The notes beneath the pieces are model-generated. The model was not told the DNA's origin, made no database searches, and was given only the letters and a program-made list of their open reading frames with translations. A program made the position numbers and the translations under genes. A stretch of DNA of 35,289 nt from Acidimicrobiales bacterium (GTDB lineage Bacteria > Actinomycetota > Acidimicrobiia > Acidimicrobiales > RAAP-2): positions 1 through 35,289 of the forward strand of contig JANWIR010000039.1 of the NCBI GenBank assembly GCA_025449805.1, read 5' to 3'. Each line of letters opens with the position of its first letter. Positions within the stretch are counted from its first letter, which is position 1. This document shows positions 5,182 through 31,277 of this stretch, one piece after another.

Positions 5182-6636
5182 TTGGCTGAGTTCACGGCGC
5201 CGTCAAGAATTTTGTTGCTCGGGTGTGGTTCGGTGGCGCAGTGCCTCCTGCCGCTACTGATCGACCACTTCGAGTTTGACCCTCGCATCGTCACCATTCT
5301 CGAAAGCCGTGACCATCGTGAGCGGGTCGGTGATTTGCTGCAACGAGGTGTGCAGTACGTGCGACACGAAATCACACCCGAAAATCTGGCCGAGACGCTC
5401 AGTACCTACCTTGGCAACGGCGACCTGCTGATCGATCTGGCGTGGAACATCGATCTGGGCGAACTCTTGGAATGGTGCCGTGATCACAATGTGCGCTACC
5501 TGAACACTTCGGTGGAAGTGTGGGATCCCTACGTCGATCCGGCGCTCACCTCACCACAGGAGCGCACGCTCTACTGGCGCCACATGGCGCTTCGCCGTCA
5601 ACTGGCCTCGTGGGGTGATAACGCGGGTCCCTCCGCCGTCGTTGAACACGGCGCGAACCCCGGCCTCGTCAGTCACTTTACGAAGCAGGCGCTGGTCGAG
5701 ATTGCCCAACGGGTACTCCACGATGATCTGGGTGGAGCGCGCACCTCGGCGCTGGAGGAGGCCCTGGCGGACGAACGTTTCGCGGACCTCGCGCACGCCC
5801 TGGACGTAAAGGTCATTCACGTCTCCGAACGCGACACGCAGATTACGAACGTCCCCAAGCAGGTCGGGGAGTTTGTGAACACCTGGAGCGTGGACGGGTT
5901 CTACGAAGAAGGCGTCGCGCCCGCGGAGATGGGGTGGGGCACGCACGAACGCGAGCTGCCCGCGCTGGCCCGCGAGCACGAGGGTGACGGTCCACGCAAT
6001 CAGATCTGTCTCGCGCAGATGGCGCACAAGACGCTCGTTCGCTCGCGCGTGCCCTCGAGTGAGATCATCGGCATGGTCATCCGTCACGGTGAAGCCTTCA
6101 CTATTAGTGACCACCTCACGGTGTGGGAGGGAGACCGGGCGATTTACCGACCGACCGTGCACTACGCCTACTGCCCGAGTGACCCCGCGTGGGCCAGCTT
6201 CGTCGAGCTCGAGGGCGCGCAGTATCGCTACCCCGAGAATCAGCGAATCTTGAACGACGACATCGTGTCGGGCCGCGATGAACTCGGGGTTCTGGTCATG
6301 GGCCACCCGTACAAATCGTGGTGGACCGGCATGTTGACCACTATTGACGAGGCGCGTCGCGTCGCGCCGCACCAGAGCGCCACCACGGTCCAGGTCGCGG
6401 CGTCGATTTTGGGCGCCATCGATTGGATGCTGCGCCGTCCCCGCGAAGGGGTGCGCGTGCCCGACGAGCTGCCGTGGCGCGACGTCATCGCGGTGGCGAC
6501 GCCCTACGTGGGTACTACGTGGTCGGGTCCGCTCGATTGGGACCCGCTCTCGACACGCGCCGACTGGTTCGATCGTTGGTCGGGTCGACGACTTGACCCC
6601 GACGACCCCTGGCAGTTCCAAAACTTCCTGGCCTAA
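5182..6636 (+). CDS. hss: Homospermidine synthase
   Basis: NAD-dependent enzyme (EC 2.5.1.44) making homospermidine from two putrescines, or from putrescine and spermidine. It has 484 residues, matching bacterial Hss. The Rossmann loop is 'LLGCGSVAQ' at residues 12-20, and family blocks include 'VRYLNTSVEVWDPY', 'VEHGANPGLVSHF', 'YAYCPSDPA' and 'GHPYKSWWTG'. The fold is related to saccharopine dehydrogenase, which is the main alternative name, but the NTSVE and HGANPG blocks are specific to homospermidine synthase. No ornithine or arginine decarboxylase is in the window, so putrescine must come from elsewhere. The gene is set apart from its neighbours by using a normal leader with a Shine-Dalgarno sequence. 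Confidence 0.9.
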   Translation: MAEFTAPSRILLLGCGSVAQCLLPLLIDHFEFDPRIVTILESRDHRERVGDLLQRGVQYVRHEITPENLAETLSTYLGNGDLLIDLAWNIDLGELLEWCRDHNVRYLNTSVEVWDPYVDPALTSPQERTLYWRHMALRRQLASWGDNAGPSAVVEHGANPGLVSHFTKQALVEIAQRVLHDDLGGARTSALEEALADERFADLAHALDVKVIHVSERDTQITNVPKQVGEFVNTWSVDGFYEEGVAPAEMGWGTHERELPALAREHEGDGPRNQICLAQMAHKTLVRSRVPSSEIIGMVIRHGEAFTISDHLTVWEGDRAIYRPTVHYAYCPSDPAWASFVELEGAQYRYPENQRILNDDIVSGRDELGVLVMGHPYKSWWTGMLTTIDEARRVAPHQSATTVQVAASILGAIDWMLRRPREGVRVPDELPWRDVIAVATPYVGTTWSGPLDWDPLSTRADWFDRWSGRRLDPDDPWQFQNFLA

Positions 6637-8574: not shown

Positions 8575-9180
8575 GTGTCGGACATGTTTTGGAATGACGT
8601 GTACCTCGCGAAGTCGCCGAGTGAGCGGTCGTGGACACAGGCGTGGCCCCTCGACGTCGAGGTCATCGAGAGCTTGGTGCCCGACCACGACGCAGCAATT
8701 ATTGACGTGGGCGCGGGCGCCTCTGAACTGTTGGCCGCGCTCATTGCGCGCGGCTACACCAATCTGACCGCCCTCGACATCTCGGCGGTGGCTTTGGATG
8801 AGGCCCGACGCCGGGTGGGTCCCCACGCGCCCGTGGCGTGGATTGTGGGCGACGTGACCACGTTCGAGGCCGAAGATTCGTTCGCGCTGTGGCGCGATCG
8901 GGCGACGTTTCATTTCCTCGTCACGTCCGAACAACAGCGTCGCTACTTGAACGTCATTCGGCGGGCGATTCGACGCGACGGGTATCTTCTCCTCGCGACG
9001 TTCGCCCCCGACGGGCCCAGCACGTGTTCGGGGCTACCCGTGCAGCGCTGGAGCACTGAGGAGATGGTCGCCTTCGTGGGCGACGATTTTCGCTTGGAAC
9101 GCGAGCAACCTCGCACGCACGTCACGCCGTGGGGTGTCGAACAGTCTTTTAATTCGTGGGTCTTTCGGCGGAATCTGTAG
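8575..9180 (+). CDS. SAM-dependent methyltransferase, class I
   Basis: Protein of 201 residues beginning MSDMFWNDVY. Motif I is 'IIDVGAGASELL' near residue 42, followed by 'LTALDISAVALDEARRRVG' in the cofactor-binding position and 'DRATFHFLV' near motif IV. The N-terminal 'FWNDVYLAKSPSERSWTQ' block resembles TPMT-like and tellurite-resistance TehB-like small methyltransferases, often annotated only as class I methyltransferases. Substrate unknown. The last 32 bases overlap the end of the convergent phosphatase gene. Confidence 0.83.
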   Translation: MSDMFWNDVYLAKSPSERSWTQAWPLDVEVIESLVPDHDAAIIDVGAGASELLAALIARGYTNLTALDISAVALDEARRRVGPHAPVAWIVGDVTTFEAEDSFALWRDRATFHFLVTSEQQRRYLNVIRRAIRRDGYLLLATFAPDGPSTCSGLPVQRWSTEEMVAFVGDDFRLEREQPRTHVTPWGVEQSFNSWVFRRNL

Positions 9181-9748
9181 GGAACGGCACGCGCCAAAGG
9201 GAACAGTTCTCGACCTCGCCCCAGTGTGTGCCTTGCAGCGAACGGTTCGCCGCGGCCGCGAGCAGGGCCCGGATCGTGCCACCGTGGGTGACCACGAGCA
9301 GGCGTTCCTGACTCCATTCACGCGCCGCGAGGGCGAAGAACGCCGCCGCACGGGCCGTCAGTGCGTGAAGGGTCTCGCCGCCGTCGGGCGCACAGTCGAC
9401 GTCGACGACGACGTCGCCCACGATGCCGGTCACCTCGGCAACGAGGGCCGAACGGGGCCCTCCTTCAAGAATCCCAAAGCTTCGTTCGCGCACGAGTGGG
9501 CTCGTCAAGACGGGCCGCGCGAGTTCGTGCGCCACAATGCCGGCACTCTCCTGGGCTCGATGAAGATCGCTCGCGATTATCATCGTGACGCCCTCACTTT
9601 TCAAGGAACGCGCGACGGTTGCGACGTGCGCGCGACCTTCGGGCGTGAGGCGCGACTGATCTTCGTGACCTTGAACCAATGAGGCGCGATTCCAATCCGT
9701 TTCGCCGTGGCGCATGAAGATGATTTCGGCGACGGGAGGTGCGGACAC
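9149..9748 (-). CDS. Histidine phosphatase family protein
   Basis: Phosphoglycerate-mutase-like phosphatase of 199 residues. The phosphohistidine motif 'RHGETDWN' is at residues 13-20, with 'IASDLHRAQESAGIV' and 'VVTHGGTIRALL' supplying the other conserved Arg and His. The frame extends to 9787, but the GTG at 9748 puts the RHG motif near the N-terminus as usual, and TAACCT lies 7 bases upstream. Roles in the family include alpha-ribazole phosphatase, phosphoglycerate mutase and acid phosphatase; there is no cobalamin gene nearby to support CobC, so only the family name is given. Confidence 0.88.
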   Translation of the reverse strand: MSAPPVAEIIFMRHGETDWNRASLVQGHEDQSRLTPEGRAHVATVARSLKSEGVTMIIASDLHRAQESAGIVAHELARPVLTSPLVRERSFGILEGGPRSALVAEVTGIVGDVVVDVDCAPDGGETLHALTARAAAFFALAAREWSQERLLVVTHGGTIRALLAAAANRSLQGTHWGEVENCSLWRVPFPTDSAERPTN

Positions 9749-9755
9749 GGCGCAA

Positions 9756-9761
9756 AGGTTA
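9756..9761 (-). promoter_or_regulatory. -10 hexamer TAACCT, leaderless
   Basis: TAACCT is 7 bases before the GTG at 9748 on the minus strand. The 170-base gap 9749-9918 is the AT-richest intergenic stretch nearby and separates this gene from the divergent comA-like gene; I see no further gene in it. Confidence 0.5.
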
Positions 9762-9906
9762 CTGAAGGCGTCGTCGCGAGAAAGCAATTCTCATAGATTT
9801 CCAAAGAAGTGCGAGAGGCCTTGGCGCGCTTGAAAATTTTCACTCATTCGTTCTCTCGCGACTGATCAGACGGTCTTTTGCCGAAATGGAGGAACGGGCA
9901 CTTCAC

Positions 9907-9912
9907 TAGCAT
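9907..9912 (+). promoter_or_regulatory. -10 hexamer TAGCAT, leaderless
   Basis: TAGCAT is followed by 6 bases and the ATG of the comA-like gene. The identical hexamer and spacing precede pheA at 20261. Confidence 0.6.
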
Positions 9913-9918
9913 TTTCTT

Positions 9919-10695
9919 ATGTCGCTCTTACTGCCGGATCGTCAGTCAAAGCCGCGCTCCTCGGGCCTCACGATGGTCATCGATAACGGTCTCTCACTTG
10001 GTCGCTTCACTGACGTGGTGGAAAGTCACGGTGACTTGGTTGACTTCATTAAGTTCGGCTGGGGCACCTCAGTGGTGACACCAAACTTCTCGCGCAAGCT
10101 TGACGTCGTGAAATCGGCGGGCGTGAAGTTCTACCTCGGCGGGACGCTCTTCGAGAAATACCTCCACCAGGACCGCTTCGACGACTTTCGCGTGCTGTGC
10201 GCGGGCTACGGCGCGGAGTACGTCGAAGTCTCCAACGGCACGATCGATCTCACGGATGCCGAGAAGGTTGATTTCGTCAAGCGCCTCTCCGATGATTTCT
10301 TGGTCATTTCCGAAGTTGGATCTAAGGACCAAGAACGTTCGGAGAACATGGCACCGAATCGCTGGGTGGAGTACATCCGGGCCGACCTCGGAGCCGGCGC
10401 CGTGCTCGTCACGCTCGAGACCCGAGAGAGCGGACGCGGGGGCATCTGTCGGCCCAACGGTGAACTTCGCTACGGCCTCGTCGAGGAGATTCTGACGTCC
10501 GACGTGGAGCCCCAGTCACTCTTGTTTGAGGCGCCCTCCACTGAACTACAGAACTACTTTGTTCGTCGACTCGGCCCCCAGGTGAACTTGGGCAATATCG
10601 CGATGGAGGACATCGTGGGGCTCGAGACCATTCGACTCGGACTGCGCAGCGAAACGCTGCTCGCGTTCGAGGCGGGCGTACCAGAGTTCATTTGA
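9919..10695 (+). CDS. comA: Phosphosulfolactate synthase (ComA family)
   Basis: Predicted TIM-barrel enzyme of 258 residues joining sulfite to phosphoenolpyruvate to give (R)-2-phospho-3-sulfolactate (EC 4.4.1.19). Family blocks include 'TMVIDNG' (18-24), 'VDFIKFGWGTS', 'KFYLGGTLFE', 'YVEVSNGTIDL' (101-111), 'ISEVGSKD' (130-137) and 'LFEAPSTELQ' (202-211). In methanogens this is the first step of coenzyme M synthesis; Bacillus YitD and the plant heat-stress protein HSA32 are homologues outside methanogens, and for HSA32 the enzymatic role is unclear. No ComB, ComC or ComDE homologue is visible, so a full coenzyme M pathway is not supported here. It leads a tight same-strand run with a VOC protein and an acyl-CoA-ligase-like enzyme, which suggests a dedicated pathway. 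Confidence 0.88.
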   Translation: MSLLLPDRQSKPRSSGLTMVIDNGLSLGRFTDVVESHGDLVDFIKFGWGTSVVTPNFSRKLDVVKSAGVKFYLGGTLFEKYLHQDRFDDFRVLCAGYGAEYVEVSNGTIDLTDAEKVDFVKRLSDDFLVISEVGSKDQERSENMAPNRWVEYIRADLGAGAVLVTLETRESGRGGICRPNGELRYGLVEEILTSDVEPQSLLFEAPSTELQNYFVRRLGPQVNLGNIAMEDIVGLETIRLGLRSETLLAFEAGVPEFI

Positions 10696-10702
10696 GTTCG
10701 CC

Positions 10703-11116
10703 GTGCGAGATACCCGAGACGTCTTCCACCTAGCTATTCCCGCCTACGACCTCGATGAGGCGTTGCACTTCTACGTGAACCAGTTGGGTTGCAAGTTGGC
10801 GCGGCGTTACGACGACCGCATCACCCTTGATTTCTTTGGTGACCAACTGGTCTGTCACCTCACGCCGGCACCCGGCGTACGCACGCCGCTCGAGGAGCTG
10901 CCAATGTACCCGCGACACTTCGGCGTGACCTTTCGCGAGCGAGCCGACTTTGACCAGCTCTACGACCTATGTCGTCAGCGTGGGCTGACGTTCTACAGCG
11001 ACGTGCGGCTGCGCTTCGAGGGTCGCGTCGAGGTGCACTCGACGTTCGTGTTGTGTGATCCGTCGGACAACCTCTTGGAGTTCAAGCACTATCCCGATCA
11101 CCGGATGATGTACTAA
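10703..11116 (+). CDS. VOC-fold protein (glyoxalase/extradiol dioxygenase-like)
   Basis: Small cytoplasmic protein of 137 residues with the paired beta-alpha-beta units of the vicinal oxygen chelate superfamily. 'DVFHLAIPAYDLDEALHFY' supplies the first His ligand, and the C-terminal 'DPSDNLLEFKHY' block supplies the usual Glu ligand. It resembles the predicted extradiol-dioxygenase-like family COG3565, whose reaction is unknown. The GTG start lies 7 bases after the comA stop with no ribosome binding site, so it is expected to be read from the comA transcript. A lyase, isomerase or dioxygenase role is possible. Confidence 0.8.
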   Translation: MRDTRDVFHLAIPAYDLDEALHFYVNQLGCKLARRYDDRITLDFFGDQLVCHLTPAPGVRTPLEELPMYPRHFGVTFRERADFDQLYDLCRQRGLTFYSDVRLRFEGRVEVHSTFVLCDPSDNLLEFKHYPDHRMMY

Positions 11117-11124
11117 ATCCCGCA

Positions 11125-12648
11125 ATGGCCGACGCCGACGATCCCTCCCTCGACGCACGCCTCAGTGCTTTGCTCAAAAGGCACGGCGACGCGTTGGAGA
11201 CGACCTTCGTACTCGACGCGCGCGAAACGGCGCAGCTGCGTTACGGCGATCTCGGCGGTGTCATCGCGTCACGACGCGCGCAGTTGACGGCCTGGGGGAT
11301 CGGTCCCGGCAGTCGCGTCGGGCTGCTCTTCGCCTCGCCCGTCTCCTTCGTGGGGTGGTTCCTCGCGGGCCTGCACGCGGGGGTGTGGGTGGCTCCGCTC
11401 GACCCGACGAACGCCAGGAACGCGCCCGAAGCGACCGACCACCGCGCCCACGCGTTGACGCTGAGCGCGATCGTGAGTGATCTGGCAGGGCCGTCGGTCA
11501 CCACGACGCGATGGTTCGTTGCACCAGTCGTCGATGAGCCCGGTGCTCCCGTGGCGGAGGTCGCGGGCGGTGGCGTGCTGCTCGCGTCCTCGGGTTCGAC
11601 CGGGACACCCAAGGTGATGGCCCTCGCCAAAGAGCAGCTGTTGACCAACGCGAGACTGATTGCGGAAAATCACCAGCTCACGGCGCAGGACCGGGGTTTC
11701 AACGCGCTGCCCTGGTGGCACGTCAACGCGGAGGTGGTGGGTGTCCTCGCCACGCTGTACGCCGGCGCCACGCTGATCGTCGCTGAGCGATTTCACCGGA
11801 CGAATTTCTGGCAGGCGGCCGGTGACCACGGGGTGACCTGGATCAACGCCGTGCCCGCCATGATCGCTCGGCTCTTGCCGCTGCGCGAGGGGGAGCGCGT
11901 CCCGGAGGGCCTGCGTTTCGTGCGCTCGGCCTCCGCGCCGTTGGCGCCGAATCTGTTGCGGGCCTTCGAGGCCGCGACGGGGGTCGAGGTCATTGAGTCC
12001 TACGGCATGACCGAGGCGGCGAGCCAGATCTGCGCGAATCCGGTGGGCGGTGCGCGAACAATCGGCTCGGTGGGGCGCCCTATCGGGGTTGAGGTGCGCG
12101 TGGTGCGCCCGAGCGCTGCTCTCGCGAGCCCGTCGGAGCGCGCCGACGTCGGACTGGTCGAGATTAAGGGCCCCACCGTGATCACCAGTTACGAGAGTCC
12201 CGGTTACGACGACCGCTTCGACGACGAGGGATGGCTGCGGACGGGTGACGTGGGTTATTTCGACGACGACGGGTTTCTTTATTTGGTTGGGCGAAGCGAT
12301 GACGTGATTAACCGAGGAGGGGAGAAGGTCTATCCCCAAGAGATCGAGAACGTTTTGATTGGTGTCGAGGGGTTAGAGCGTGTGGTGGTCATCGGCGAAG
12401 CCGACGACGTATTCGGACAGGTGCCGGTCGCGTACCTGGAAGTTCAGGCGGAAATACGGCGCGACGATCTGGAACTCGACGTCGTACTGAGTTCGGTACG
12501 TAGCGCATTGACGACACAATTGACGAAGCCGTACCGCCCCGCGACGCTGAAAGTGGTGGACGAGATCCCGACCGCCTCGACGGGCAAGGTTCGCAAGGGG
12601 CTCGTGCGCAGTGGCGACGTTCACGTGGTGCGCGTTGAGCACCTCTAA
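11125..12648 (+). CDS. AMP-dependent acyl-CoA synthetase, oxalyl-CoA synthetase-like
   Basis: Adenylate-forming ligase of 507 residues. The P-loop 'SSGSTGTPK' is near residues 155-163, the A5 motif 'YGMTEA' at 293-298, the hinge region 'GWLRTGDVGYFDDDG' at 369-383, and the catalytic lysine is probably Lys488 in 'PTASTGKVRK'. The block 'FVRSASAPLAP' followed by 'YGMTEAASQ' is most like the oxalyl-CoA synthetase AAE3/Pcs60 branch, which would activate a small dicarboxylate-like acid. The ATG lies 8 bases after the VOC stop, with no Shine-Dalgarno sequence. Because the upstream gene is predicted to make a sulfolactate phosphate, a sulfonated C3 acid is an attractive but unproven substrate. Fatty or aryl acids cannot be excluded. 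Confidence 0.88.
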   Translation: MADADDPSLDARLSALLKRHGDALETTFVLDARETAQLRYGDLGGVIASRRAQLTAWGIGPGSRVGLLFASPVSFVGWFLAGLHAGVWVAPLDPTNARNAPEATDHRAHALTLSAIVSDLAGPSVTTTRWFVAPVVDEPGAPVAEVAGGGVLLASSGSTGTPKVMALAKEQLLTNARLIAENHQLTAQDRGFNALPWWHVNAEVVGVLATLYAGATLIVAERFHRTNFWQAAGDHGVTWINAVPAMIARLLPLREGERVPEGLRFVRSASAPLAPNLLRAFEAATGVEVIESYGMTEAASQICANPVGGARTIGSVGRPIGVEVRVVRPSAALASPSERADVGLVEIKGPTVITSYESPGYDDRFDDEGWLRTGDVGYFDDDGFLYLVGRSDDVINRGGEKVYPQEIENVLIGVEGLERVVVIGEADDVFGQVPVAYLEVQAEIRRDDLELDVVLSSVRSALTTQLTKPYRPATLKVVDEIPTASTGKVRKGLVRSGDVHVVRVEHL

Positions 12649-12681
12649 GAGCGTCAACTAACCGCGGTCGCTAGGAACGAC

Positions 12682-13923
12682 ATGAGTGCAGACCCAGCGA
12701 TGACGTCGAGTGGCACGCGCAAGCGACTCGAACACGTTGACGCGATGCGTCCCATAAAGCAGACCGCGGTCATCGCCACGCACGCGCTGATCTTTTTCGC
12801 GCCCCTCTCAACGTCCTTCGCGGCGGGCGCCCTACTGACGCTCACGCACTTCTCACGCGAAGCCTTCTTGTTCGTGTCCGCGTGCATGCTCGCCTACAGC
12901 TACCGCACGCACGCGTCGGTCAAGATCGCGCCGTACTGGCGGCGGCGGTTTATCTCGGTCGGAGTTCCGTACCTCGTGTGGACGTTGGTGTACTTGCCCA
13001 TCTCGGTCATGGTGCCGACGAGTCGCTTTCCCTACGAACGGGTGCCGTGGGGGACGGTCTTCTCGCTCCACGGACTCCATGACCTGCTCTTCGCGATCAC
13101 GACGGGGTACTACCACCTGTACTTCCTCCTGGTCCTCTTGGAGTTCTACGTCATCTTTCCGCTGGTCTTCACACTGCTGCGCCGCCATCCGTCGTCTCAC
13201 CTTCTCGTCATGGTGTTCGCGCTGCTCTGGCAGATTTTCTGGGATTACCTCGTGCGGCACGGGCACCCTTCATTCGTGCTGTCGGGCAAAATCGAGACCC
13301 GACTGGTCTTCTCGTATCCCTTGTACTTACTGGGCGGCGTGGTCGCGGCCTTTCACCTCGACGCCCTGCACGATTGGCTACGACGACACGTGCGCACCGT
13401 CGTTGTGGGTACCGTCGCCAGTGCGGTCGTGCCGCTGCTCATTGACGCGTTTCATCGTCGACTGCACGTGCCGCCGTACCTCGTGCCGGGTGGTAATCCC
13501 TTTTCGCCCCTCGTGATCCCCTACGACGTGGGCGCTATTTTTTGCGTCTACTTATTTGGCGTTTATTTAGTGAGTCCTCGTCGCTCGTCGCGCACGCGCG
13601 CTATTACGCAGTCGGGTTCGGACGCGGCCTACGGGATCTACTTGTCGCAGATCGTGTGGATCGTGTTCTTGCACCGCTGGGCCCACGCCTGGGGCATCTC
13701 GCGCCACGTACCCTGGCCGGTGCTGTTGCTCGTCGTCGTCGTCGTTGCCTACCTGGCGGGATTTCTCTTCAGCGCCCTCGTCGCGCGTACGCCGCTGGCG
13801 CGCGCCGTCGTGGGGCGCTCGCGGGTGCCGTGGTCAACGTTGCTCCCGCACCTTCGTTCGTACGTCGTGCCGGTGCGTCGCGACGAGCACGGCGCCGGTC
13901 CGATGGACCTCAGCGACGCCTAG
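12682..13923 (+). CDS. Acyltransferase family 3 membrane protein
   Basis: Multispanning protein of 413 residues with around ten hydrophobic segments. The N-terminal 'HVDAMRPIKQTAVIATH' block holds the first conserved positions of the acyltransferase_3 (OafA/YrhL/Abi-like) family; the catalytic-type His is in 'ATHALIFF'. The later 'YGIYLSQIVWI' segment is the equivalent of the family's C-terminal 'GiYLlH' motif. Members O-acetylate surface sugars, antibiotics or lipids. It lies 33 bases after the ligase gene; an AGGA stretch a few bases upstream could serve as a weak ribosome binding site. Joint function with the ligase is possible but only inferred from position. Confidence 0.83.
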   Translation: MSADPAMTSSGTRKRLEHVDAMRPIKQTAVIATHALIFFAPLSTSFAAGALLTLTHFSREAFLFVSACMLAYSYRTHASVKIAPYWRRRFISVGVPYLVWTLVYLPISVMVPTSRFPYERVPWGTVFSLHGLHDLLFAITTGYYHLYFLLVLLEFYVIFPLVFTLLRRHPSSHLLVMVFALLWQIFWDYLVRHGHPSFVLSGKIETRLVFSYPLYLLGGVVAAFHLDALHDWLRRHVRTVVVGTVASAVVPLLIDAFHRRLHVPPYLVPGGNPFSPLVIPYDVGAIFCVYLFGVYLVSPRRSSRTRAITQSGSDAAYGIYLSQIVWIVFLHRWAHAWGISRHVPWPVLLLVVVVVAYLAGFLFSALVARTPLARAVVGRSRVPWSTLLPHLRSYVVPVRRDEHGAGPMDLSDA

Positions 13924-27550: not shown

Positions 27551-29899
27551 CTACGATTTCGTGACAACTCGTTTGGCCGCACTCGCCGGTGAAACGCCCG
27601 CCGCGTTCAGCGCGCGCACGCGCACCAAGTACGCGTGATGCTTCAGGAGATTGCGCACGCTCACCGACGACGCGGTGAACGTTACCCACGTCACGCCGCC
27701 GTTGAGGGAGTACTGATAGCGCGTCGCGACCGCATCACCGCTCGATGGCGGCTGAATACGCAGCACGAAGCCGCCCGAGGTCGCCGTGATCGCCGTGACG
27801 CGAGGGACGGGCGGGTTCGCCGGGTTCGCGACGAAGTCAACGGTCACTTGATGGATCACCGCACCGTGATAGCTCAAGGTCACGTGCACCGGACCGGCCG
27901 CGGACGAGGCGATCGTCGCGGTGACGACGCCGCGCGCGTCGGTGGTGACGGCGTAGGTCGCGTGGCCGGGCTCCTGACGACTGGTGGCGTCACCGTCAAT
28001 CGTTAACTCGCCGTTCGACGAGGTCGCGTCGATCTTCACCGTCTGGTTCGCCAGGGCGGCGCCGTTCGCGTTTCGCAAGGTGGCGCTCACGGTGAACGGT
28101 CCCGAATCCACCGCCGGCGAGAGCGTGGTGGTCGTGAAACTACTCATCGACGAATCGACGTTGACGTTGGGACACAACCCATTGATGAAGGCAGCCCCGT
28201 TGGGACTACCGAGGCCCGAGGCCATGTCGTAACCCGGACCCGCGCTGTAGCCCCCGGCACCAAACACGTCGTTGCTCCCCGACGTCACGTCCACAAAATC
28301 ACTCGAGGGCATCTGGTAGAGCTGGGGATTTAAGAAGCCCAGTCGTCCGACGTTGCACGCTTGGGTCGCGACGGCGACGAGCGCGCTGACGATGGGCGAG
28401 CCAATCGAGGTTCCGCCGATCGCGAACCAGTCGGGCGCCGAGCAGTTTCCGCTGCTGGGGTAGTACTGAATGAAGCCCGTAGAGGGATCGCCCATCACCG
28501 AAAGGTCGGGCACCATGCGCGTCGTGACGTTGGCGGTGGAACCCGAGGTGATCTGCCAACTCGGGCGTGACCAGAGCACGGACACGCCGCCCCCGCCGCC
28601 CGCCGCGCCGCCGCAGGTACTCCCCGAGCCCGACTGATTCCAGACCGACTGGTTGAGGGGCGAAATGCTCGTCACCGCGAGACCCCCGACGCCCGTGACG
28701 AAGGGTTGGGACGCGGGATCGTCCACGGCCAGTGTGGTGGAACTACTCGACGCGCCTTGACAGTCCGACGACCCGCTGTCGCCAGCCGAGGCGAGCACAC
28801 TTTGACCCTGGGCGGCCATCTGTTGAAAGATGACCTGTTCACCCGTCGCGTCGCCGTTGGGGTCGGTCTCACAGGTTCCCCACGAGACCGAGAGCACGTT
28901 GGCCGTGTTGTCGTCGGCGACACGCGCGTACACGTCGAGCGGTCCCGCGTTGTTGTTCGGTCCCTGGTAGATCTCGATCTTGGCGCCGGGGGCGAGCACG
29001 CCGACCTCTTCGGTATCCAGGGTGGCTTCGTCACTAAAACCGCTGCCCGGTCCTCCGTCCACGTTGATGACCGAGACGCTGGGCGACACGCCGTAGCAGG
29101 AGAAGTACGTGTTCACGTCACTCGGGTTGTAGAGACCTAACTCGTAGATACCAATGGTCTGACCAACGCCCGTGTTGCCGGCGGCCCACGCTTGATCGAG
29201 TCCGTAGAGCTTGGCCTGTTGTTGGGCGGTGTAGCCGTAGAGCTGATTCGGACCGTTGGTGGTGGCGTCACCGGCCGACGGGCAGGTCGTGGGGCCGTGG
29301 GGCGCGCTCGAGGTCAACTGTCGACTCAGGTGCGGCGCGGCCACGCCCGGTGTCGAAAGGCCGACCACGGCGGCGATGTCGGGGGCGAGGGATGAGGGCA
29401 CGCTGGCCGCGCGCGCGAACTGGGCCACGACGACGCCGCCGGGCGTGCGGATATTTTCCACGGACGTCGCGAAGGCCCGCGCCACGTCGCCGTCGCGGCC
29501 GCGCAGCGACACCAGCGTGCGGGCCGTGTTGACCGCCGTGACGCGTACGCCGTAGCTCGCGAAGTAGGTACGCACCGCCTTCAGGCTCGACGCCGGTGCA
29601 CCGAAACGTTGGGCGAAGGTCTGGGGCGTGAGGAAGTGGTGGAAGTTCGCCGAACTGGGGTTGTACAGCGACGCGAGGAACACGGTGAGTGCACGTTGGT
29701 CGGGCTGACGCAGGACCACGTCGAAGTGGGTTGCGCCGCCGGGCGCGACAATCTGCTCGCCGTGGGACAACGTGCTCGCGCTCGCGACGACGACGCGCGG
29801 CGTCGCCGACAAGGCGCTCGTGACGGGGAACGCGAGGGCGAGCGTGCTCACGCTCACGACGGCGCACAGCGCTCGCAGGTGACGCGGGGGGCGACGCAT
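27551..29899 (-). CDS. S53 family serine-carboxyl protease (sedolisin) with Ig-like and FN3-like tail
   Basis: Secreted protease of 782 residues. It has a signal peptide (1 to about 31), a propeptide of the Pro-kumamolisin type (about 35-190), and the catalytic domain to about 577. The E-x3-D pair is Glu291/Asp295 in 'SDEATLDTEE', the oxyanion Asp is Asp374 in 'SAGDSGS', and the nucleophile is Ser498 in 'GGTSIGSP'. The calcium-site block 'GYSAGPGYDMASGLGSP' follows. Residues about 590-690 form an Ig-like (Big-type) domain and 698-782 a fibronectin-III-like domain, which may bind surfaces. Sedolisins are acid-active peptidases, so an acidic habitat would be consistent. The ATG at 29899 has TAGGCT 7 bases upstream. 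Confidence 0.93.
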   Translation of the reverse strand: MRRPPRHLRALCAVVSVSTLALAFPVTSALSATPRVVVASASTLSHGEQIVAPGGATHFDVVLRQPDQRALTVFLASLYNPSSANFHHFLTPQTFAQRFGAPASSLKAVRTYFASYGVRVTAVNTARTLVSLRGRDGDVARAFATSVENIRTPGGVVVAQFARAASVPSSLAPDIAAVVGLSTPGVAAPHLSRQLTSSAPHGPTTCPSAGDATTNGPNQLYGYTAQQQAKLYGLDQAWAAGNTGVGQTIGIYELGLYNPSDVNTYFSCYGVSPSVSVINVDGGPGSGFSDEATLDTEEVGVLAPGAKIEIYQGPNNNAGPLDVYARVADDNTANVLSVSWGTCETDPNGDATGEQVIFQQMAAQGQSVLASAGDSGSSDCQGASSSSTTLAVDDPASQPFVTGVGGLAVTSISPLNQSVWNQSGSGSTCGGAAGGGGGVSVLWSRPSWQITSGSTANVTTRMVPDLSVMGDPSTGFIQYYPSSGNCSAPDWFAIGGTSIGSPIVSALVAVATQACNVGRLGFLNPQLYQMPSSDFVDVTSGSNDVFGAGGYSAGPGYDMASGLGSPNGAAFINGLCPNVNVDSSMSSFTTTTLSPAVDSGPFTVSATLRNANGAALANQTVKIDATSSNGELTIDGDATSRQEPGHATYAVTTDARGVVTATIASSAAGPVHVTLSYHGAVIHQVTVDFVANPANPPVPRVTAITATSGGFVLRIQPPSSGDAVATRYQYSLNGGVTWVTFTASSVSVRNLLKHHAYLVRVRALNAAGVSPASAAKRVVTKS

Positions 29900-30509: not shown

Positions 30510-31277
30510 CTAAATCGCGAGGCGTAGCGTCGTGGCGACGCCGAGGGTAATCACGAGCGCGCGGACCCACGCCGCCGAAAGTCGCTTGACGACCCACGCG
30601 CCCAGCCACCCACCCACCAAGGTGCCGGCCACGAGCATGAGGACCGCCTGGACGGCTAATTGTCCGTGAATGAGGTACACCGCGGCGGCGACGGTCGTAA
30701 TGAGAAGCGAGACGGCACTGCGCAGAGCTTGGAGTTCGTGCACGTCGTAGGGCAAGGTCAACGCCGTGAGCGCGAGCAGCAAGATACCCAGTCCGGCCCC
30801 GAAGTAACCGCCGTAGAGCGAAATCGCGAACACGCCCGCGACGAGCGCCCGTCGCCGTGCCGGGTGCTGGTGGTCGACGTGGGCGAGACGACGCGTGATC
30901 GACGGGGCCAGCGCGAAGAGCAGTGTTCCGGCGCCGATGAGCCACGGAACAATGAGGCGAAATGTGCCCGGTGCGCCGGCGAGGAGCAACGCGCAACCGC
31001 TGAGCGTACCCACGACGGTCGCTGGGGCGAGAGCGCGTAGTAGCGGCCAGTGCGCGCGCAACTCGTGGCGGTACACGCGAATCGACGCGAAGAAACTCGG
31101 TCCTACCCCGACCGTGGTGGACATGTTGGCCTGCAGTGCGGGAACGCCGAGGGCGAGGAGGGTCGGGAACGTGATGAAGGTTCCGCCACCGGCGACCGCG
31201 TTCGCGACACCCGCGCCCACGCCGGCGGCGAAGAAAATCAGGAGTCGCCAGGGCTGTGCAAGGGCGACCGCGAGCAT
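30510..31277 (-). CDS. TauE/SafE family permease
   Basis: Membrane protein of 255 residues with about eight hydrophobic segments. The 'GVANAVAGGGTFITFPTLLALGVPALQANMSTT' start and the internal repeat 'GGYFGAGLGILLLALTALTL' are typical of the TauE/SafE (formerly DUF81) sulfite and organosulfur exporters. Substrate is not proven; sulfite, sulfoacetate or taurine export are known roles in the family. Together with the comA-like gene elsewhere in the window it hints at organosulfur use. Start ATG at 31277 follows TAGAGT by 7 bases. Confidence 0.88.
   Translation of the reverse strand: MLAVALAQPWRLLIFFAAGVGAGVANAVAGGGTFITFPTLLALGVPALQANMSTTVGVGPSFFASIRVYRHELRAHWPLLRALAPATVVGTLSGCALLLAGAPGTFRLIVPWLIGAGTLLFALAPSITRRLAHVDHQHPARRRALVAGVFAISLYGGYFGAGLGILLLALTALTLPYDVHELQALRSAVSLLITTVAAAVYLIHGQLAVQAVLMLVAGTLVGGWLGAWVVKRLSAAWVRALVITLGVATTLRLAI

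Follow-up and report, generated by a model that had tools for sequence, protein, structure and literature searches.

A gene cluster that very likely serves one shared pathway surrounds a homologue of phosphosulfolactate synthase (ComA) in the window, the whole stretch of 35,289 nucleotides analysed here, which is contig 39 (JANWIR010000039.1) of a draft genome of an Acidimicrobiales bacterium (GCA_025449805.1; 1.36 Mb in 98 contigs, 76% complete). The cluster comprises a run of four genes, encoding ComA, a VOC protein, an AMP-forming acid-CoA ligase (LIG) and an acyltransferase-3 membrane protein (AT3), and a divergent gene for a histidine phosphatase (HisP). We propose that the run and the divergent HisP gene constitute one pathway by which a C3 sulfonate is made and fixed to the cell envelope, a proposal whose chances of being right or wrong we consider evenly balanced. 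It rests on observed features, namely the gene set, its linkage, the intact catalytic motifs and the clade to which ComA belongs.

Linkage of the gene set across genomes

For the sequence-only reading, a run that was not conserved beyond close relatives would have refuted the idea. This did not come about, as members of the gene set recur together in both Actinomycetota and Bacillota, with rearranged orders. To avoid a choice of neighbours through ComA, the scan of named genomes was seeded with the VOC protein alignment alone, and the best 80 of the 284 relatives found were kept as the basis of the locus counts. ComA was located directly upstream of VOC in 76 of these 80 loci and, where 900 bases or more were available upstream of VOC, in 73 of 76 loci (exceptions: L119, L135 and L146). 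The 44 loci in which VOC had 5 kb or more on either side, hereafter full-flank loci, contained ComA in 42 cases, LIG in 37, AT3 in 35, HisP in 28 and a gene for an SGNH protein in 15, the last four being counted by tblastn matches at 1e-8 and not by orthology, so that the LIG count accepts any AMP-ligase match at this level and includes a weak one in L114. Four SGNH queries were used, of which those from L149 and L144 score over the Pfam cut-off (PF13472), that from L105 scores under it (26.3 vs 32.9) and that from L119 was unscanned. In a control set of 17 loci with other ComA types (15 from the phylum and two from plasmids, of the coenzyme M type), VOC, LIG, AT3 and SGNH occurred in none and HisP in two, both from one family (L065 and L069).

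Gene order and strand differ among the loci while membership stays, in Actinomycetota as well as in Bacillota. ComA was present in 12 of 41 genomes of the order (the window's own, 24 of its genus and 16 from other families), all 12 belonging to the genus, within which the ComA-VOC-LIG-AT3 run is mostly intact despite different genes on both sides; another family has the order LIG-AT3-ComA-VOC. Named carriers include Alicyclobacillus, Streptomyces physcomitrii, Trebonia kvetii, Pseudonocardia, Frankia, Nocardia albiluteola and Actinomycetospora, and the records titled Acidobacteriota, Saccharibacteria and Sulfurimonas among the VOC loci are possibly mislabelled bins. The first 38 of the 80 loci (L076-L113, VOC identity 68-93%) appear to belong to the window's own group, so that the numbers make the loci seem more independent than they are, and the variety of gene orders is the better argument for linkage. 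The linkage itself is strong.

Two candidates for further membership were dropped. An apparent AT3-SGNH fusion in L143 and L144 proved to be two tandem AT3 genes (L143:8005-10466 and L144:8164-10598), with a separate SGNH gene in L144. A major facilitator superfamily (MFS) transporter was left out of the model as it occurs in only two of the 44 full-flank loci; such a gene also adjoins AT3 in L194-L196 (57-61% to the one of A. fastidiosus), with kin in L119 and L132.

ComA and the phosphatase

ComA scores far over the gathering threshold of its Pfam family (PF02679, 269.2 vs 25.2 bits) and under the cut-off of the archaeal equivalog model (TIGR03849, 221.7 vs 280 bits). A ComA tree of 80 rows placed the VOC-linked enzymes together with five solo copies and YitD of Bacillus subtilis (1u83), which we take to make phosphosulfolactate for spore sulfolactate, in one group with support of 98/98, apart from both ComA of M. 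jannaschii with the Xanthobacter enzyme and the Nocardioides type. Near-duplicates were excluded from this tree (the cluster rows of L017-L028, L056, L057 and L059; of L076-L099, only six were retained), as was any row that contained a stop or had fewer than 200 aligned residues. K136, aligned to K137 of the M. jannaschii enzyme, presumably an active-site residue, was identical in all 80 rows, which take in M. jannaschii ComA and YitD, and the same applied to 23 other columns including E103, E132 and R169.

The sequence-only reading had overlooked the divergent HisP gene. No fewer than 95% of 42 HisP rows keep the catalytic set (RHG, E101 and H168), and the gene lies within 6 kb of VOC in the 28 full-flank loci counted above, in four arrangements: upstream and divergent, downstream and convergent, and co-directional either upstream or after VOC. 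In L134 and L136, a ComB gene (PF04029; 2.3e-35 and 3e-36) is located directly upstream of ComA-VOC, and a profile search detected ComB in five of 31 genomes that carry the cluster, among these the genome of L136 (G341). As ComB adjoins ComA-VOC in these two loci, the simplest reading of the sequences is that ComA would produce phosphosulfolactate and that HisP would take off its phosphate. HisP likely replaces ComB, since ComB there occupies the place where HisP sits elsewhere.

A second recurring ComA neighbourhood was observed in the phylum (L061-L068, e.g., L063:5508-10472), consisting of a NadB/fumarate-reductase-like flavoprotein, ComA and a long protein that matches no Pfam family. Inspection by eye added a LysR-like regulator and, near several of these loci, sugar-biosynthesis-like genes; this neighbourhood is possibly another sulfonate route. 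In Corynebacterium glutamicum, the ComA homologue cg2797 adjoins the PrpD-like cg2796, a different neighbourhood, and is 3.2-fold up at pH 6 compared with pH 7, according to the available excerpts of PMC2627906; those of PMC2807442 also list cg2797. An Alicyclobacillus genome paper mentions comA, in its available excerpts, only among genes of intermediary carbon metabolism (PMC10562698).

VOC protein, ligase and acyltransferase

An alignment of 45 VOC rows, mostly from Actinomycetota and Bacillota, contained 44 invariant positions, among them H9, H72 and E126, which we take to correspond to the FosA metal site, and several arginine and lysine residues. The structure model (pLDDT 93.7) best matched 3rri, an entry from A. 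acidocaldarius (Z 22.1, root-mean-square deviation 1.5, 132 aligned residues, 66% identity), followed by FosA, FosB and FosX, enzymes for a C3 phosphonate (Z 12.3-14.4, identity 24% or less). As these are the nearest characterised folds, the model suggests a small anionic C3 compound as the substrate, a structure search giving the fold and not the reaction. A role as a fosfomycin-resistance enzyme was rejected, as the FosA model NF000221 gave 16.3 bits against a cut-off of 250.

LIG contains both AMP-ligase domains with the P-loop and the catalytic lysine, and its motifs (P-loop, YGMTE, D375, R390 and K488) are conserved in at least 95% of 59 rows. Its assignment to the AAE3/oxalyl-CoA branch in the sequence-only reading stands as far as the nearest solved relatives are oxalate-CoA ligases (5ie0 best, 7.8e-57); succinylbenzoate and malonate ligases are also among the best solved matches, which places LIG nearest to enzymes that activate small polar acids. 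LIG reached the cut-off of none of the 25 NCBIfam models shown.

AT3 proteins acylate extracytoplasmic glycans, succinyl being among the groups transferred, in the available excerpts of PMC9558356 and PMC12423673, and those of PMC9833829 describe an R-X10-H motif in transmembrane segment 1 (TM1) and an RXXR motif that is highly, not absolutely, conserved. The former is present as R23-X10-H34 in 52 of 53 rows of the cluster AT3, the remaining row having a gap, and RXXR is absent from TM3, where the window protein reads RRRF.

Two modules that tend to travel together

Many Bacillota loci have ComA-VOC without other cluster genes nearby, and LIG was searched for in 19 genomes, 13 of them Bacillota. 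LIG was found at E 1.2e-73 or better in 12 of the 13 Bacillota genomes, with second matches at 1.7e-48 or weaker, and at that strength in 16 of the 19 genomes overall. In three of these 12, LIG is already near VOC (L119, L132 and L149). In the other nine, the region of LIG has AT3 beside it in eight cases and SGNH in seven; the ninth region (L188), lacking AT3, comes from a contig that starts at LIG. A synthesis module (ComA, VOC and phosphatase) and an activation-and-transfer module (LIG, AT3 and SGNH) thus tend to co-travel, with exceptions that are weighed below. In two related Alicyclobacillus genomes, the SGNH genes next to LIG-AT3 have as a neighbour an Ldh_2 gene of PF02615, the family of the sulfolactate dehydrogenase ComC (L189:11555-12694 and L191:11415-12497, both on the minus strand).

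Proposed pathway and alternatives

In the proposed pathway, ComA would condense sulfite and phosphoenolpyruvate to (R)-2-phospho-3-sulfolactate, and HisP, or ComB in a few genomes, would dephosphorylate it to 3-sulfolactate. The VOC protein, probably metal-dependent, would act on (phospho)sulfolactate, most likely at C2 by epimerase or lyase chemistry, which is the weakest step. LIG would then convert the carboxylate with ATP to a CoA thioester, from which AT3 at the membrane, with SGNH where present, would form an ester on a hydroxyl of an extracytoplasmic glycan or glycolipid. Every substrate, acceptor and biological role in this scheme we infer. The sequence-only reading had put forward a single chain from ComA through VOC and LIG to AT3; this idea is coherent because the gene set persists and the detached LIG of Bacillota keeps AT3 and SGNH beside it, and the chain had to be completed by the phosphatase (HisP or ComB) and SGNH. 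More specifically, and tentatively, the cluster may encode a widespread, undescribed surface modification in which 3-sulfolactate is activated to sulfolactyl-CoA and transferred to envelope glycans (sulfolactylation), which we judge somewhat more likely to be wrong than right.

Several observations weigh against the pathway. The cluster is patchy (VOC in seven of 296 genomes of the class), and ComA-VOC occurs without a LIG of orthologue strength in L114 (Streptomyces physcomitrii, 1.5e-43), L155 (3e-41) and L134 (none); of four further genomes of the class with VOC, three have LIG at 1e-50 or better and G518 has none. ComA itself has no match in two genomes in which VOC, LIG and AT3 are present (G348 and G349; loci L135 and L146), and the genome of L119 (A. 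suci) has only a distant match (38% identity). In L119, VOC and a LIG-MFS-AT3-SGNH run are kept, while the VOC-linked ComA is a degraded remnant (about 5900-6000); the MFS transporter there might take up the sulfonate. Conversely, solo ComA copies of the same clade lack VOC, LIG and AT3 nearby (L022, L027 and L028, which are loci of the genus, and L058 and L060), four of the five being in genomes that also hold the full run. The window genes scanned with Pfam included none for SGNH. Sixteen of the 44 full-flank loci lack HisP near VOC, including ones from Bacillota, Nocardia, Streptomyces and Actinomycetospora. Histidine phosphatases are, besides, a common family, the window genome having three PF00300 genes. 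Finally, LIG may activate some acid other than sulfolactate.

Some of these points would suit a different arrangement, in which free 3-sulfolactate or a derivative serves as a solute or store, as 3-sulfolactate does in B. subtilis spores, and LIG and AT3 are a neighbouring envelope-acylation function sharing location or regulation alone. ComA belongs to the clade of YitD, ComA-VOC is apart from LIG-AT3-SGNH in several Bacillota, and three genomes have ComA-VOC without an orthologue-strength LIG. We nevertheless regard this as unlikely, as many lineages link LIG and AT3 to ComA-VOC, in differing orders, while other ComA types have neither nearby, and LIG is kept in all but one of the 13 Bacillota genomes. 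Quite unlikely, in our estimate, is a pathway in which sulfolactate belongs to the acceptor and not to the donor: LIG and AT3 would decorate a sulfolactate-based molecule with a common acyl group, whether fatty, branched or succinyl, and the resulting sulfonolipid would be secreted or stay in the membrane. Fatty-acid-CoA ligase models also match LIG, and isovaleryl groups are transferred by AT3 proteins such as CarE (PMC9558356, available excerpts); however, the best solved matches of LIG are ligases of oxalate, succinylbenzoate and malonate, and AT3 acceptors are extracytoplasmic, whereas the sulfonate made by ComA would arise in the cytoplasm.

A product other than a sulfonate would result if ComA catalysed another reaction, HSA32-like or with another nucleophile. 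The score below the TIGR03849 cut-off would agree with this, and the activity of ComA here is a prediction from sequence, but the invariance of K136 and 23 further columns up to M. jannaschii ComA and YitD, and the pairing of ComB with the same ComA-VOC in two loci, render it improbable. Coenzyme M synthesis, in turn, was already considered unsupported in the sequence-only reading, and the missing markers, the operon content and the ComA tree all speak against it. The absence of ComB, ComC and ComE claimed there holds genome-wide by profile search in the 76% complete window genome, ComD not having been searched: neither ComB (PF04029) nor the ComC family (PF02615) gave a match, and ComE (TIGR03846) exceeded its cut-off in none of 22 genomes including that of the window, with weak matches to this thiamine-pyrophosphate-enzyme profile in all 22. 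The ComC family was matched in eight of the 22 genomes, in seven over the cut-off. Among the Pfam-scanned window genes, there was also none for a lyase of the Xcb type (fumarase/argininosuccinate-lyase-like) or a pyridoxal-phosphate (PLP) enzyme of the ACC-deaminase-like type. A non-canonical coenzyme M pathway could be argued from ComA being the first coenzyme M enzyme in archaea and from a ComA homologue opening a gene run beside 2-hydroxypropyl-CoM lyase in Xanthobacter; with no ComB or ComC marker, no ComE over cut-off, no such lyase genes among the scanned neighbours and separate ComA clades, canonical synthesis was rejected and the non-canonical variant is very improbable.

Organization of the window

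The four genes and the spacers of 7, 8 and 33 bases between them, which the sequence-only reading had described, agreed with the open reading frames and Pfam families (Table 1). The promoter hexamer claimed in front of ComA fared differently by method: a consensus sigma-70 scan upstream of ComA returned no site and no -35 element, but a TANNNT hexamer is positionally conserved in the window and in all 10 window-type loci compared with it, at a spacing of six bases in 10 of these 11 sequences and seven in one, though most of the upstream DNA differs between them. Because the hexamer is kept at the same spacing, it fits one promoter and a leaderless start of ComA, the latter being likely from the sequence.

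Table 1. Features of the cluster in the window
Feature	Position	Strand	Evidence
HisP, histidine phosphatase (branch 1), divergent from ComA	9149-9787	-	PF00300 1.4e-39
-10-like hexamer TAGCAT	9907-9912	+	ends 6 bases 5' of ComA ATG
ComA/YitD-type phosphosulfolactate synthase homologue	9919-10695	+	PF02679 4e-80; 1u83 3.2e-77
VOC, FosA-like fold, cluster marker gene, GTG start	10703-11116	+	Glyoxalase PF00903 2e-12
LIG, AMP-forming acid-CoA ligase	11125-12648	+	PF00501 5.9e-41 and C-terminal domain PF13193; 5ie0 7.8e-57
AT3, acyltransferase-3 membrane protein	12682-13923	+	Acyl_transf_3 PF01757 4.6e-25

Flanking ArsB/CitMHS, CLC and GNAT genes recur in window-type loci only and were not counted as members. 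A PLP decarboxylase of another family (PF00282) is encoded 5 kb downstream of the cluster on the opposite strand, and a TauE/SafE family membrane protein (PF01925, 'sulfite exporter') about 17 kb from the cluster (30510-31277, minus strand). At 27551-29899 (minus strand), a protein with a pro-kumamolisin activation domain and Big_1 and fn3 domains is encoded; kumamolisin-type proteases are acid-active, and this protein would fit an acid habitat of the host.

Implications

Going only by names and sample labels, many carriers come from acid habitats or are named after them (Alicyclobacillus, Pseudonocardia acidicola, and Acidimicrobiaceae from bog and palsa). On that basis a link to acid may be drawn, in that carboxylate and phosphate lose their charge in acid and sulfonate keeps it. 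If true, sulfolactylation would provide a negative surface charge that is not lost by protonation, add a sulfonated acyl group to the AT3 repertoire and name a new pool of biological sulfonate. It would also explain the role of the many bacterial ComA homologues that lie outside coenzyme M synthesis and give context to 3rri, a crystallised protein without assigned function. No mention of sulfolactyl or sulfolactoyl groups or of a sulfolactate ester was found in the open-access literature searched, outside of which most subscription papers lie, and no paper on this cluster appeared by title among the open-access search results listed for its families together. The cluster is carried by the cultured genera Alicyclobacillus, Pseudonocardia and Actinomycetospora and by Nocardia albiluteola and is thus experimentally approachable.

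Comparison with known systems

The closest counterpart is the sulfolactate synthesis of Bacillus by YitD and YitC, which we take to be ComA and ComB, respectively. Both share the ComA clade and, in L134 and L136, ComB directly before ComA; however, the cluster adds VOC, LIG, AT3 and often SGNH, and in many of its actinobacterial loci HisP takes the place of ComB. The coenzyme M operons of Xanthobacter autotrophicus Py2 and Nocardioides sp. JS614 likewise open with a ComA homologue, but of clades that differ from that of the cluster, and continue with argininosuccinate-lyase, fumarate- or adenylosuccinate-lyase and PLP-type genes, and without VOC, LIG, AT3 or SGNH. The fosfomycin-resistance proteins FosA, FosB and FosX, the closest characterised folds of VOC after 3rri, differ in their low identity and in gene context. 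Similarly, the oxalate-CoA ligase AAE3 shares with LIG the intact AMP-ligase motifs as its best solved match, whereas LIG remains under every NCBIfam cut-off among the models shown. The O-acylation systems of AT3 proteins with or without SGNH (OafB, ExoH and OpgC; PMC9833829 and PMC9558356, available excerpts) have the R-X10-H motif in common with the cluster AT3 and include succinyl, an anionic acyl group, among their known donors, and an SGNH neighbour accompanies the cluster likewise in 15 of the 44 full-flank loci; in contrast to these systems, the cluster AT3 lacks RXXR and is linked to genes that would make and activate a sulfonated acid.

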